Assembly (NCBI GenBank): GCA_032622095.1
Contig: CP136061.1
Location: 620,001-684,000 of the forward strand
Length of the DNA: 64,000 nt
Direction of reading: 5' to 3'
Source of the DNA: Siphonodentalium dalli
Lineage: Eukaryota > Mollusca > Scaphopoda > Gadilida > Siphonodentaliidae
The notes below the pieces were generated by a model. That model was not told the DNA's origin. It searched no databases and saw only the letters and a program-made list of their open reading frames with translations. The position numbers and the translations under genes are program-made. This document shows, piece after piece, positions 1 to 18,546 of this stretch (positions are counted from its first letter, which is position 1; every line of letters starts with the position of its first letter).

Positions 1-930
1 GGAACTATTAAAATAGCCGGTGTCCGTCCGTCCGTGCGTGCGTGCGTCCGGAAATGGTTTCCGGATGATAACTTTAGTTTCGGTTATTAGATCAAAAGCA
101 AATTTCATAGGTGAGTTTATCAGACCAAAATAAAGGTCAAGTTCGAATATGGGTTTGCTCCACCCATTTTTGCGAGAGTTATGGCCCTTTTTTAACTTGG
201 GGAAAACCCCTGAAAGTTGGTTTCCGGATGATAACTGTAGTAGAGTTAATCGGATTCAAACCAAATTTTGTATATTACTTTCTACCAGCAAAACACAGGT
301 CACGTTCGAACTTGGGTTCTGCCCGACCATTTTTGGCAGAGTTATGCCCCTTTTTCGACATAGAAAATTCAATTTTCTTCTTTTTTTTGGTTTCCGGATG
401 ATAACTTGATTTTGGATTGTTTATATGCAAAACCTGTTTTTTTGTGGATTACTTATATCAAAATACAGCTCAAGTTCGAATTTCGGTTTAATCCGATAAT
501 TTTTGCGAGAGTTATGGCCCTTTTTTGTCCGCCGACCGGACATATAAAACCCCAAAAGTTGGTGTCCGGATGATAACTTTAGTAGAGTTAATCAGATTTA
601 AATCAAATATGGTATGTCTCTTTCTCCCAGCAAAACACAGGTCAAGTTCGAATTCGGGTTCCGCCTGCCAATTTTCACCAGAGTTATGTCCCTTTTTGAC
701 TTAGAATTTTTGCTAATTTGAGGTTTCCGGATGAAAACTTTAGTAAATGTGTACTGAATGAAATTAAATTTGGTATATGTAGGTTTACTAGCACAAAAGA
801 CAGATCAAGTTCGACGAATTTGAGTTTGAACCGATGATTTTGCTCAGAGTTATGGGCTTTTCGACTTAGAAAATTCAATTTTTCTTGTAATTTTCTTCAT
901 TTTGTGCCAATTTGAGGTTATATTTTGACT
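1..930. repeat. Tandem ~160-172 bp subrepeats (GTTTCCGGATGATAACTTTAG family)
   Basis: The motif GGTTTCCGGATGATAAC or a close variant recurs at about 56, 219, 389, 561 and 722, spacing 161-172 bp. Each unit also carries a CAAGTTCGAATTTGGGTT-like block and GAGAGTTATGGCCCTTTTT. A short CCGTCCGTGCGTGCG run lies at 20-50, as in the heads of other repeat families in this window. The window cuts off the left end. Short open frames here follow the repeat and look non-coding. A fragment of the same family is at 12190-12570. Confidence 0.85.
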
Positions 931-12189: not shown

Positions 12190-12570
12190 TATAATTTCTT
12201 CTAATAATTTCTCTATGGGTGAATATATCCACCCATTTTTGCCATGGTAATTCCTTGTCGACTTAGAATTTGCCAATTATTTTGGTTTCCGATGATAACT
12301 TTAGTTTTTGTAATCTGATTGTTTTTTAATTTGGTTTGTTTATGAAGCACTTGAAGATACAGGTCAAGTTCGAATTTGGGTTTGATCCGCCCACTTTTGC
12401 AGGAGTTATGGTCCTTGTCGACTTAAAATTTGCTGATTATTTTCGTTTCCTGATGATAACTTTACTTTTAGTTATCTGATTGTTTTTAAATTCAACTGAA
12501 TCTCTTGATATTTGGAAAGTGGTTCAAATTTCAGAAGACAAAGGCCAAGTTCGAATTTGGTCATTAGTTT
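12190..12570. repeat. Fragment of the ~165-bp GATGATAACTTTAG repeat family
   Basis: GGTTTCCGATGATAACTTTAG and CAGGTCAAGTTCGAATTTGG recur at about 12285-12375 and 12445-12560, matching the tandem repeat at 1-930. The foldback element at 12571 starts within or at the edge of this fragment. Confidence 0.75.
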
Positions 12571-12729
12571 GGGAGCCAGGAGGGTTTTAATTACACTATC
12601 GCGCAAGGAAGGTTTGATGCTCTTGATTTGTTGGCGGTGATAGATCATTACGGAAAACTAATTTCTTAAGTTGCGCATTCCTGGCGTTTAGGGGCCAGAT
12701 GGCCCTCCAAAACCCCAAAAATGACTTTT

Positions 12730-13345
12730 AATTACACTATCGCGCAAGTCCACCATCTTTACATTGAATACTCTACTATGTTCACTGATCATAGAAACAT
12801 AACTTAAGAACGGAAATTTCCTGGCGTTTTCAAATAAGAAGGGGTCTTCTAGGGGGACCCAAAAATGTCAAAATTTCACTTTTAATTACACAATCGCGCA
12901 AGTCCACCATTTTTTCCTGAAATGGTCTACTGTATTCACTGATAATAAAAAACGCAACTTAAGAACGCAAATTTTCTGGCGTTTTCAAATAAGAAGGGGT
13001 CTTCTAGCGGAAGGGGGGGGGACAAAAATGTCAAAATTTCACTTTTAATTACACATGCAATCGTGCAAGTCCACCATTTTTTCCTGGAGTAGTCTCCTGT
13101 ATTCACTGATCATAAAAAACAACTTAAGAACGGAAATTTCCTGGCATTTTCATATAAGAAGGGGTCTTCTAGGGGGACCCAAAAATTTTAAAATTTAACT
13201 TTTAATTACACAATCGCGCAAGTCCACCATTTTTACCTGGAATAGTCTATTATGTCCACTGATCATAAACACACAACTTAAGAAAGCAAATTCCCTGGCG
13301 TTTTCAAATAAGAAGAGGTCCATATATAGGTGGTACAAAAAACTC
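12730..13345. repeat. FB1 left subterminal array (~153-167 bp units)
   Basis: CGCGCAAGTCCACCAT recurs at 12741, 12895, 13062 (as CGTGC) and 13215. Each unit also has CTTAAGAACGGAAATTTCCT, GGCGTTTTCAAATAAGAAG and GGTCTTCTAGGGGGACCC. The inverse array is at about 17600-18370. Confidence 0.85.
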
Positions 13346-13587
13346 ACATATATGTAGTTCTTTGTGTGATAATATATTGTCATTTAGTAACTCAAGCTTA
13401 AAACATGGCATACAGAAGTGAAACATATACCTGTTTAAAAATTAAAAATTAAATTAAACACTTTGAACACTAAAGCTTCTTGGAACAATTACGTTTATTA
13501 TTAATTGTCGAGATCATAGAACATAAACACGGAAAGATTCATTAAGCTATTGAGCTCGGCATCTATTGACAATGAATGTATATAGAT

Positions 13588-14850
13588 CTATGGGTCCATT
13601 TGGTAATCCGTGTCGGATTCATCAGCACAACCAGTTACACGTTCATCGTCCGTATCATCGTTGTCACATTCCGGTTGTTCTGGGATAACTGACTTTGGCA
13701 AATGCGGCCCATCGAACCAGATGATCCAATACGACCCATCAGCAAGTTCCCATTCACTGCCAGGATCATTGGGCAGACTGTTATCACCACAGCATGCCAC
13801 ATATTAACCACATACTTAGCCCTGTAAATTTTCTGAGGCACATCAGACTTGCAAGGCGGAATACTACTCCCTACAGTCCTTTCAGTTTTGATAACGGTCG
13901 GTTTTCATCCTTCGGCCCAAAAGTTTTCTCAAAACTTTGAATCTGTATTTGTTAATTGGGATGGGTTTGCATGCGGGCACCATATAACGTTAATCTATAC
14001 TCTTCAAGCATCTCGTACGTTTCGTCTGAAACAGATTCTGAGACTAAGTCTGCAAATGCTTCAGGATATCGATCGTCGCGATCTACAGAGAAGCAAAATG
14101 GCGTTTCTTGCCCTTCCGAGCAAAATCGGCCGTATAATAGCACCCGATGTAGACGTGAAATGCTGGCAGCGCATAACAGATGGTTTCTCCTATTTCCTCA
14201 GACACAGCTGAAACGTTCAAGTAGCGTCTGTTACCATGTCCAGTTGTGCCAACGTCCATCCAGATAACAGATTTAAATGTATGTATGTGATGCAATAGAA
14301 TTACGAGTAAATCTGTGTCCGCAGCTCGTACTACGATGTTACCAACGGGTATTTCATGACCAATATCCACCATGTGTAGACAAACCCTTGTGTCTGCCTC
14401 AGGATGATCACAATACAGACTTTCATGGTCTGCTTCTCGACACTGCCATCGACAACAACAAACTTCACACACTCTTCGTCAAAGCCAAGGTACACTTCCC
14501 TGTCGACCAAGACATGTGTGTGGTGTGAAGAAGACCAATATTTGGCAAAAAATCGAGGCAGCTGCTTTTTGAAAGATGTAGATTTCAATGCTTTAGACGC
14601 ATATTTAGGGATCAACTGCTCAGGACCGGTTATCATGTATGTGACCTGCTCAGCACCTCTGCATTCTCGTTCACAGTCATGGGTGGAAGTTCCACGTAGC
14701 CTATGCATGTGTCGAACACCACGTCCATTCGCTTGGACGTTAGGTTTAATATCTCGATGTCAATGGGGATTGAAGAAGGAATTCTATGTCATCTTCACGT
14801 TTAGTTGCAAGGGTTGCTAGTCTTCCCAGCATAACCCTCGTGTGGCGGAG
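13588..14850 (-). pseudogene. Broken FEN1/XPG-like PIN-nuclease-type gene, left arm of FB1
   Basis: The minus strand carries pieces of one protein in several frames. In order from the N-terminal side: a segment with GPEQLIP and KSTSFKKQLPRF (about 14640-14540), VKFVVVDGSVEKQ, then PEADTRVCLHM near 14400, VVRAADTDLLV near 14330, WMDVGTTG, and LPAFHVYIGCYYTADFARKG near 14110-14150. The C-terminus is acidic and ends in a stop at 13588. E-A-D-T, A-D-T-D-x-L-V and G-C-D-Y are arranged like the metal-binding residues of FEN1/XPG PIN nucleases (known family logic). Here the D of GCDY is Tyr, and frameshifts interrupt the frame, so this copy is dead. I know similar proteins as a multicopy, probably transposon-borne family in marine invertebrates; the nuclease role is inference. 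Confidence 0.7.
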
Positions 14851-14852
14851 CT

Positions 14853-15248
14853 CTTTAACAACAATTTTACGCGCCCTTGTTTGAGAAGGTTTTCAGTTTA
14901 TTTCTGGAGATCGGCCTCTCAAAGCGATCTGGATTATCCGTACATTCCTTCACTAAATCGTGCTGGAGTGTGACAAAGGGAAGTAGAGCCGCACTTATCA
15001 GCGCTGCATTTGAACTATGTGGACTACATACAACTATATGATGTCCGAGCTGAACTGACTGACAATAGGATTGATCGTGACAATGGTGACCCCAACAAGC
15101 TTCTCATCTGTATACAGGCTAACGCATATCCATTTACTCTGGAAACAGACACCCTCTTGAACGTACAGGCCAATGTGCCAGTACTGAAATTAGCGATTCC
15201 TTATAAACAAAAAAGAAAGTTGGCAAACAGAAGCACGACGATTTAACG
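14853..15248. other. FB1 central spacer
   Basis: This is the non-palindromic middle of FB1. A 78-codon + strand frame (15010-15246) runs up to the start of the right-arm gene copy and may be an N-terminal part of it, but it has no counterpart on the left arm and no recognised motif. Confidence 0.4.
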
Positions 15249-17367
15249 ATGATAAAGAGCTCCGCTGCACGAGGGATATGCTGGGGGAAAATAGCAATCA
15301 TTGCAACTAAGCGTGAAGTTGACATAGAATTCCTTCTTCAATTCCCATTGACATCGGTACCACTCTCTATCTACAAGACTGACGGTACAATGGCTCACAC
15401 GGACAAGAGTTCATTATTCCAATTGCTCGAGGGGAGGGTCATTGACGATGGGACTCCAGAATTCGTAGATGCTCACATCGTCATTCCTGCTGCAAGGCTT
15501 ACCGTCGGCTTTACCCCCGACAGATGGTTGACTCTCTCGTGTCGTGCTTCACATACTTTTAAACCTAAAGTCCAAACGATCGAATCGACGTGGTGTTCGA
15601 CACATATGTGGAACCTTCCACCAAGGACTGTGAACGAGAACGCGAAGGTGCTGAGAAGGTCACATACGTGATAACCGGTCCTGAGCAGTTGATCCCTAAA
15701 GATGTGTCTAAAGCATTGAAATCTACATCTTTCAAGAAACAGCTGCCTCGATATTTTGCCAAAGATTGTTCTTCTTCACACCACACACATGTCTTTGTCG
15801 ACAGGGAATACACCTTGGCTTTGACGAAGAGTATGTGGAGTTTATTGTTGTCGATGGCAATGTCGAGAAGCAGACCGTGGAAAGTCTGTATTGTGATCCT
15901 CCGGAGGCAGACACAATGTTTGCCTACAAATGGTGGATGTTGATCATGAAATACCAGTTGGTAACATCGTAGTACGCGCTGCGGACACAGATATACTCGT
16001 ATTTTTCTATTGCATCACATACATACAGTTAAATCTATTATCTGGATGGATGTTGGTACAACTGGATATGGTAGCAGACGCTACGTCAACGATTCAGCTG
16101 TGTCTGAGGAAATAGGAGAAACCATCTGTTCTGCGCTGCCAGCATTTCACGCCTACAGCGGGTGCGATTATACGGCCGCTTTTGCTCAGAAGGGAAATAA
16201 ACGCCCTTTTGCTCTTGATCCCGACGATCGATAGTCTGAAGCATTTGCAGACTTGGCCTCATGATCTGTTTCAGAAAAAACGTACGAGGCGCCTGAAGAG
16301 TATACATGTATATGCTATATGGTGCCTGCAAACCCATCCCAATTAACGAATACAGATTCAAGGTGTTCGAGAAAGCTTTTGGGCCTAATAATGAAAACCG
16401 ACCGTTATCAAAGCTGAAAGGACTGGACGGTAGTAGTATTCCGCCTTGCAATTCTGTTTTGCATCAGAAAATTGACAGGGCTATTTATCTGGTTCGACGG
16501 GCCACAGATGCCAGAGTCAGTAATCCCATGGCGAACAACCGGAATGTGACAATGATGATACGGACGATGAACGTGTACCTGGTTGCAGTGTTCGCGCTGT
16601 CGGTAGCCAAATTAGCCAATGGCTAATATTATTCGAATTTGGCTAATAAAAATTTCATTTGGCTAAACTTTTTTTAACCCCAAATGGAGACGGAAAGCAT
16701 GGAGTCGTAAAGCTAATTAATAAAAGCGCTGAATAGATCGAAGTTATGTGACGAAAGTATTTCGTACTTATGTTAATACGCTGTCGATGACATTTAACCA
16801 GCCTAATCGTCAAAACGCTTAAGCTGTATACTGGTTATGTAACTGATTAAGCCGTCTGTAAGATAAAATACCTAAATGCTTTGTTCAGAAGAGCAGTTCT
16901 TAATCAATGGTTGCGTAATCTGCATCCCGTTTAATAAACTGGCTTCTCGTCATAAAAGTGTCAACGACATAGAGTTATTACAATTAATTAGCTTAGCGAA
17001 TTTATGCGGGCTTTTGCGATGTGAAATCCCGCCATATTCTATAGTAATGTTTTATGAATTGATCTGCTTGTGTGATATTCATGTAATACATACATATGTT
17101 CGTATAATATTGTTTTTAAAGTTGTTTTTGTGTTGTTTTAATTATGTTTTTATACTGAATAACAAATAAAGTTTAAAGCGAATATTTTAGTCATTAATTG
17201 TGAACCGCCCAGAAAATGAGGATTTAATTTGGCCAAAAAACATTTGGCTAAAGTTTTTCTCATTTGGCTAATAAAATTTTCATTTGGCTAAAATATTTTT
17301 CGGTCCAGCGCGAACACTGCCTGGTTGTGCTGATGACTCCGACACTGATGACGAAATTGACCCATAA
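15249..17367 (+). pseudogene. Broken FEN1/XPG-like PIN-nuclease-type gene, right arm of FB1
   Basis: This is the better copy of the gene. Segments in three frames follow each other: GKIAIIATKREVDI and LTSVPLS-KTDGTMAHTDKSS (from 15249), a FDTYVEPSTKD and GPEQLIP part (from 15590), EADT near 15904, RAADTDILV near 15979-16000, WMDVGTTGYG, ALPAFHAYSGCDYTAAFAQKG at about 16136-16195, then a C-terminal part from about 16306. A hAT splits the last codons (16586-17319) and the acidic tail ends in TAA at 17365-17367. The GCDY acid is intact here. Several frameshifts make it non-functional. Metal-binding motifs fit a FEN1/XPG-type PIN fold; the biological role in the element is unknown. Confidence 0.72.
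16586..17319. mobile_element. Non-autonomous hAT-like element (hAT-3), 734 bp, nested in FB1
   Basis: Ends CAGTGTTCGCGCTG and CAGCGCGAACACTG are perfect inverses. The target duplication CCTGGTTG is exact at 16578-16585 and 17320-17327, and the left FB1 arm shows the empty site. Clusters of TTTGGCTAA / TTAGCCAA near both ends look like transposase-binding repeats. A 97-codon open frame at 16876 has no recognisable homology. Confidence 0.93.
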
Positions 17368-17599
17368 ATATACATTCATTGTCAATAGATGCCGAGCTCA
17401 TTGCTTAATGAAGCTTTCCGTGTTTATGTTCTAAGATATTGACAATTAATACCAAGCGCAATAATTCCACAAAGCTTTAGTGTTCAAGGTGATTAATGTT
17501 TTTTTTTATTTTGAAACAAGAATTCTGAATGCCATGTTTTAATCTTGATTTACTACATGCTTATATATTGTCACACAAAGAACTACATATATGGCTGTT

Positions 17600-18370
17600 G
17601 TACCACGCATGGACCTCATCTTATTTGAAAACGCCAGGAAATTTCCGTTCTTAAGTTGTGTTTTTATGATCAGTGAATACAGGAGACTATTCCAGGAAAA
17701 AATGGTGGACTTGCGCGATTGTGTAATTAAAAGTGAAATTTTGACATTTTTGGTCTTAAGTTGTGTTTTTATGATCTTAAGTTGTGTTTTTATGATCAGG
17801 AAATTTGCTTTCTTAAGTTGTGCTTTTATGATCAGTGAATACAGTAGACTATTCCAGGAAAAAATGCGCGATTGTGTAATTAAAAGTGAAATTTTGACAT
17901 TTTTTGGTCCCCATAGAAGACCCCTTCTTATTTGAAAACGCCAGGAAATTTGCATTCTTATAAAGTTGTGTTTTTATGATCAGTGAATACAGTAGACTAT
18001 TCCTGAAAAAAATGGTGGACTTGCACGATTGTGTAATTAAAAGTGAAATTTTGACATTTTTGGTCCCCCTAGAGGACCCCTTCTTATTTGAAAACGCCAG
18101 GAAATTTGCGTTCTTATAAAGTTGTGTTTTTATGATCAGTGAATACAGTATACCATTTCATGAAAAAATGGTGGACTTGCGCGATTGTGTAATTAAAAGT
18201 GAAATTTTGACATTTTTGGGTCCCCCTAGAAGACCCCTTCTTATTTGAAAACGCCAGGAAATTTCCGTTCTTAAGTTATGTTTTTATGATCAGTGAACAT
18301 AGTAGAGTATTCAATGTAAAGATGGTGGACTTGCGCGATAGTGTAATCAAAAGTCATTTTTGGGGTTTTG
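17600..18370. repeat. FB1 right subterminal array (inverse of left array)
   Basis: About five units with ACGCCAGGAAATTTCCGTTC, ATGGTGGACTTGCGCGATTG and AAAGTGAAATTTTGACATTT, spaced about 150-160 bp, in inverse orientation to 12730-13345. One unit is internally shortened near 17760. Confidence 0.85.
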
Positions 18371-18546
18371 GAGGGCCATCTGGCCCCTAAACGCCAGGAA
18401 TGCGCAACTTAAGATATTAGTTTTCCGTAATGATCTATCACAGCCAACAAATCGAGAGCATCAAACCTTCCTTGCGCGATAGTGTAATTAAAACCCCCCT
18501 GGCTCCCTAACTACATGGTCTGATGAATTTTGACAGAACTATAAAA

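Follow-up and report, generated by a model that had tools for sequence, protein, structure and literature searches.

Why does a DNA element that folds back on itself carry, in each of its arms, a copy of what looks like a flap-cutting nuclease gene? The question is raised by a palindrome in a 64,000-nucleotide stretch of the genome of the scaphopod Siphonodentalium dalli (contig CP136061.1, positions 620,001 to 684,000; hereafter the window). A first-pass annotation, made from the letters alone, had read it as a foldback transposon with mirror-image FEN1/XPG-like genes, which would be either part of the element's own machinery or captured and duplicated with the arm, and in which the nuclease might be a natural partner of folded DNA. 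We consider it probable that the element descends from an AcademX-type cut-and-paste DNA transposon with long terminal inverted repeats, as a non-autonomous foldback founded by mirroring of the 3′ end of the transposon gene.

Self-comparison of the window showed that the inverted arms are real and form an imperfect palindrome of 5,949 bp, whose limits had to be moved from 12571..18507 to 12565-18513 (Table 1). Excluding a nested insert, the arms measure about 2.4 kb on the left and 2.8 kb on the right. Their global alignment gives 1954 identical positions out of 2240 aligned (87%), with identity peaking at the tips (97%) and reaching its minimum beside the nested insertion. The outer 387 bp of the arms are 97% complementary, and the blocks 14092-14300/16005-16213 and 14496-14689/15615-15808 are 91-92% complementary. 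The inverted block joining gene to gene scored 1145 bits versus 29 bits for the top match in 20 letter-shuffled controls. Each arm is built from three layers, namely an outer terminal repeat of ~160 bp, an array of ~154-bp tandem repeats and a gene fragment that reads outward; the long terminal inverted repeats and internal tandem repeats typical of foldback elements are therefore present. The element ends read TAGTT[T/A]GGGAGCCAGG, with CAT on either flank. The left array repeats a 22-bp motif, TTTAATTACACWATCGCGCAAG, which is also found in the terminal repeat; all 10 of its matches in the window lie in the arms, with an expectation of 0 from 100 shuffles. As single-stranded DNA, the first 160 bases did not fold clearly better than shuffles (z -1.55).

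The degenerate gene copies do read outward from the center as previously annotated, the left one on the minus strand and the right one on the plus strand, but the simple two-arm layout was incomplete. Additional pieces of this gene occupy the center, each arm contributing one strand, and come together near 15010 (the right-hand central stretch 15010-15246 gives a weak match of 29 aa, E 0.001), and the right arm is split by an insertion of 734 bp. This insertion has inverted ends of 14 bp (CAGTGTTCGCGCTG) together with a duplication of 8 bp (CCTGGTTG), from which we take it to be hAT-like, and it has no match among the other host-genome loci compared (L001-L050). The gene relic amounts to about 1.4-1.6 kb per arm, and no open reading frame in the window that begins with a usual start reaches 150 codons.

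Table 1. Features of the foldback element and its immediate flanks (positions in the window)
Feature	Position	Strand	Remarks
Target-site duplication, left	12562..12564	.	CAT
Whole foldback element	12565..18513	.	Inverted arms; ends common to other copies
Outer terminal inverted repeat, left	12565..12723	+	TAGTTTGGGAGCCAGGAGGG...
Subterminal tandem array, left	12724..13320	+	154-bp unit, 3.8 copies
Left gene relic	13588..15010	-	Frame-broken; P0001 residues 1033-1102 and 1189-1557 matched
Right gene relic	15010..16585	+	Frame-broken, cut at 16586; P0001 residues 1070-1144 and 1176-1522 matched, weakly 963-991
Nested insertion	16586..17319	.	734 bp, inside right arm
Right gene relic tail	17320..17367	+	Acidic C-terminus, past nested insertion; read from sequence
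Subterminal tandem array, right	17612..18354	-	Unit about 156/310 bp
Outer terminal inverted repeat, right	18355..18513	-	Reads TAGTTAGGGAGCCAGGGGGG...
Target-site duplication, right	18514..18516	.	CAT

The element belongs to a family with multiple copies in the host genome (2.23 Gb, 9 contigs). In a DNA search with the left arm, 40 of 1010 candidates were scored (at least 68 matches), and the ends were examined at 21 loci, i.e. 20 other places and the window. Both ends are visible in 15 of them (14 and the window), and exact 3-bp target duplications flank 14 of these 15 copies, L016 being the sole copy without one, compared with a 3-bp flank agreement in 20 of 210 cross-copy pairings used as a control. 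Agreement over 4 bp was seen in 0 of 15 copies. The duplicated triplets are CAT, GTA, TAT, TAG, ATA, TAA, TTA, CTG and AAA. Many copies with target-site duplications, as expected from a mobile foldback element, are thus observed. In a protein search with one gene piece, the best 150 of 1,485 candidates were grouped into 89 places. Among the matches listed, the 56 places with at least 50% identity comprise 34 opposite-strand pairs, all 34 reading outward, and 22 single places, for which a second arm may fall outside the best 150 of 1,485 matches; these 22 are truncated copies, copies with an unscored second arm or non-foldback members. At 33-46% identity, none of the 33 places listed is paired and the domain is single in all 33.

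The origin of the fragment is indicated by a distant relative. At locus L049, a stop-free open frame of 1,564 codons (protein P0001, ~1,540 residues) is flanked on both sides by inverted repeats that are 88% identical and no shorter than 628 bp (L049 3178-3805 and the stretch joining L049 and L050); the sequence read stops inside the repeat, and the outermost ends and target duplication lie outside the stretch. The window pieces align in order with the C-terminal third of P0001 (residues about 960-1560). Across the family, residues 951-1563 are matched by 41 of 41 sequences and residues 1-950 by none of the 41 (L009-L048 and the window, representing 26 distinct places; L029-L048 are short and 15 of them come from places already represented). 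It follows that the arms carry the 3′ end of a transposon's own gene. The two gene tails lie head to head near 15010, the internal pieces lost differ between arms, and no region of the window element matches the transposase-like middle of P0001. This middle part is qualified as transposase-like from a weak match to DUF6589 (E 0.0007, below cut-off), the sole Pfam match of the protein, while Cys/His clusters can be recognized by eye in the N-terminal part. Between the two origins initially envisaged, the element's own machinery is therefore nearer than capture, since the fragment corresponds to the C-terminal third of the relative's ~1,540-residue protein, with the qualification that the gene is here a relic. 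The fragment was probably not captured and is probably inactive, being what is left of a protein that belonged to the element.

The intact-frame relative that the first-pass annotation had proposed to look for was thus found in the form of a 1,564-codon frame, but it belongs to a cousin: the best window-family fragment is 43% identical to P0001 over 120 residues, and the readable part of the L049 terminal repeat bears no resemblance to that of the window family. The length of the L049 repeats (at least 628 bp) suggests that long repeats may be usual in the lineage. The mobilizing partner of the window family was not found, and no relatives were found in the viral contigs scanned. Separately, the place C3:290841517-290841804 matches the query piece at 76% identity, contains a 361-codon open frame and is unpaired among the matches listed; it is possibly a closer relative of the mobilizing partner.

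Which superfamily gave rise to the family is less firmly established than its architecture. AcademX nucleases are of the XPG type. Duplications of 3 bp are also made by PIF/Harbinger and CACTA types and do not settle the superfamily by themselves, so that the lineage could be one of these with a nuclease-like domain rather than Academ, a possibility that deserves some weight although we find it on the unlikely side. Against it, AcademX, which encodes a nuclease, is the one with 3-4-bp duplications among the nuclease- or helicase-bearing lineages named in the available part of PMC10045372, and a duplication of this length is found here, with 14 of 15 copies showing exactly 3 bp. Several Kolobok lineages bear other nucleases, and KolobokE, KolobokD and KolobokP are placed in a superfamily with TTAA duplications in the portion of PMC9587614 at hand. 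One difference is that AcademX is described, in the text available, as encoding its own enzymes (PMC10045372), whereas the window element does not. The lineage of the window foldback is probably Academ, a membership that we infer. No literature linking a foldback with Academ was found in a search that did not include the main description of Academ, and such absence is therefore unproven.

The many copies also give the order of events. A tree built from 36 gene arms at 21 loci, for which six arm rows with both probes on the same stretch were reduced to one row per locus and labeled by the better-matching probe, parts left from right types with a support of 1.0 (branch 0.085). Distances are 3.3% between left arms, 3.5% between right arms and 11% between left and right arms, the latter being equal within a copy and between copies, which implies that the mirror preceded the spread. 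In 14 of 15 copies, one tip of the element is C-type and the other A-type; those of the window copy are T and A. Together, tree and tip types indicate that one founder with two already different arms was amplified, and the arms were not homogenized afterward. Frame breaks occur at the same places in different copies (among the copies listed, with no more than 16 rows for each piece). When the two arms of the window copy are compared over 185 codons, dN is 0.084 and dS 0.073 (dN/dS 1.16), with differences spread as 16/15/12 over the three codon positions; in this small sample of 43 differences from one copy, nothing points to selection acting on the protein after the arms separated.

These figures also bear on an alternative origin, in which two separate transposon copies were inserted head-to-head and later mobilized as a unit, with no inverse duplication by repair. 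The 11% divergence of the arms compared with 3.3-3.5% among copies of one arm would fit with this scenario, as would the slightly different gene points at which the arms start. However, decay after duplication explains the divergence equally well, and once-active copies should show purifying selection, in contrast to the dN/dS of the window arms. We therefore regard this origin as unlikely.

The resemblance to flap-cutting nucleases deserves a more cautious reading. FEN1 proteins display the motifs IDA.. and VFDG.PP..K..E..R. In P0001, segments similar to the acidic motifs of FEN1 can be recognized by eye and follow one another in order (IVDAFF, FVADTYKHPSIKDIERES, HEEADTR, YSDTDVL and GCDYTASF), and the upstream stretches IVDAFFLIRTL and FVADTYKHPSIKDIERES look like FEN1 motifs. 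In the window, E-A-D-T and A-D-T-D-x-L-V are present in both arms as annotated, but G-C-D-Y is restricted to the right arm; the left arm reads GCYY in the window copy and GCDY elsewhere, e.g. in L009. A foldback transposon with a FEN/XPG-like order of acidic motifs is thus what is seen by eye, P0001 included. The proposed profile search of an intact homologue for a PIN fold gave no match with Pfam, PDB, the FEN1 profile or hhalign, an outcome that the first-pass annotation had named as counting against its reading; the domain query profile was made of three sequences, two of them partial, which makes such fold searches weak. Neither the window pieces nor P0001 gave a significant XPG_N/XPG_I or FEN1 profile match with this shallow query. 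Eight window gene pieces had chance-like Pfam matches only (best, STAG domain, E 0.005, below cut-off), four pieces had none in NCBIfam, and the P0001 domain gave one match in PHROGs (E 0.12). No nuclease was retrieved from PDB sequences with a window piece, whole P0001 or the three-sequence profile. Alignment with hhalign to 19 archaeal FEN1 proteins reached a probability of 0.6 on a scale of 100 over 13 columns, and the domain was absent from the matches to the archaeal FEN1 profile, though some shuffles scored 2.8 bits. A regular expression for the ordered acidic motifs (D, D, E-x-D/E, D-x-D, G-x-D) missed the P0001 domain but also 13 of the 19 archaeal FEN1 proteins, and single-sequence AlphaFold modeling of the 128-residue left piece of the window gave a mean pLDDT of 35. 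The C-terminal tail resembles a flap-cutting nuclease, its putative PIN/FEN fold being undecided, and intact relatives may possess nuclease activity.

Capture of a host FEN/XPG-type repair gene, subsequently duplicated with the arm, would account for the FEN-like motifs of both the fragment and its intact relative, but we hold it to be very improbable, given that the distant relative fuses the C-terminal region to an upstream part of ~950 residues between its own inverted repeats and that the domain is not found by the archaeal FEN1 profile. Hardly credible is a working flap or hairpin nuclease that aids replication or movement of the element, for which the FEN1-like motif order and the fragment in both arms at no fewer than 34 places may be invoked, against the frame breaks common to the copies listed, the dN/dS of the window arms and a longest stop-free stretch in the gene of only 265 codons with an internal deletion (20 loci, threshold of at least 180 codons). 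The earlier view of the nuclease as a working partner of folded DNA finds no support in view of the common frame breaks, the neutral arms of the window copy and a domain that is single at all 33 distant places listed. In the window element the fragment has the appearance of cargo in decay, and nothing observed here supports a functional tie of the nuclease to the foldback shape.

Under the favored derivation from an AcademX-type transposon, the complete relative resembles a big cut-and-paste element with long inverted repeats and encodes one protein of ~1,540 residues that combines an N-terminal part, a transposase-like middle and a FEN/PIN-like C-terminus. In the founder, the gene 3′ end, the downstream region and the terminal repeat would have been mirrored head-to-head, most likely because the repair of an excision gap switched templates, with loss of the N-terminal three fifths of the gene. 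Both gene copies would then have decayed. The 154-bp repeats with the terminal-repeat motif are probably extra, putative transposase-binding sites, and the transposase of a relative may have amplified the founder in trans. AcademX and the Kolobok nucleases make a complete relative of this kind plausible and, together with Galileo and Tetris, suggest copying during gap repair and spread in trans.

Among these, Galileo of Drosophila (P superfamily) has long and internally repetitive terminal repeats with secondary transposase-binding sites, extended by inverted recruitment of internal sequence and longest in non-autonomous copies only (PMC3573991, as far as its available text goes). The window family shares the repetitive long termini and the inverted recruitment. 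In contrast, Galileo generates 7-bp duplications, its repeats reach up to 1,260 bp compared with arms of about 2.4/2.8 kb here, and its recruited F1/F2 spacers flank the coding segment, whereas the window element recruited coding sequence. Tetris of Drosophila virilis is likewise a non-autonomous foldback whose autonomous partner was not found and whose tandem repeats (~220 bp) echo the flanking terminal domain through a shared 37-bp stretch, according to the accessible part of PMC4079207. It differs by duplications of 8-10 bp, for which Mutator has been suggested, versus 3 bp, and its copies are described there as devoid of conserved ORFs, whereas each window arm keeps its gene relic. In the Tm1 Mutator/foldback group of Meloidogyne, foldback termini are common to a transposase-coding element and its non-autonomous kin, some of which retain short pieces of sequence lying 3′ of the transposase domain, as in the present case (PMC3169594, available part). 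However, the transposase is of the Mutator/Phantom type, the duplications are 9 bp long, and the remnants are not described as mirrored in that part of the source.

Neither foldbacks nor extended terminal repeats nor transposons that bear a nuclease are new in themselves. New, as far as we have seen, are foldback arms that consist for the most part of the mirrored coding end of a transposase-nuclease-like gene, and many-copy evidence for the order of events. The family offers a worked example of the birth of a foldback, with the single-copy gene end in a relative, its mirrored and decayed form, and copies that place the mirror before the spread. The findings suggest that, like the P and Mutator types, a transposon lineage bearing a nuclease (probably AcademX) is able to give rise to foldbacks, a class proposed to have arisen independently in several lineages. 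They also call for caution, as conspicuous motifs in the arms of a transposon may be no more than relics. One might further speculate that the FEN-like domain of the parent trims flaps or hairpins in excision gaps and thereby favors head-to-head duplications of the 3′ end, so that foldbacks mirroring this domain would arise repeatedly; we consider this improbable. If the nuclease domain did promote such rearrangements, an accessory enzyme would be tied to a structural class of transposons.

A few additional observations concern the host genome. Outward-reading pairs with a best identity of 61-64% occur at C9:155868974-155870293, C3:207484454-207486047 and C4:110594911-110596444; they may belong to a sister family of foldbacks or be copies in an advanced state of decay, and could represent an independent case of domain mirroring. 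At C4:177036174-177053254, five minus-strand matches with a spacing recurring every ~3.55 kb, and a plus-strand match 10 kb further, look like a local tandem amplification. The two left ends of L028 (positions 1429 and 3566), which lie 2.1 kb apart with identical 14-bp flanks, are a local duplication of one copy's end. Finally, a dispersed repeat of ~140-190 bp (71-73% identical) occupies several stretches in window positions 55-871 and is found once at 12253-12464, to the left of the element.
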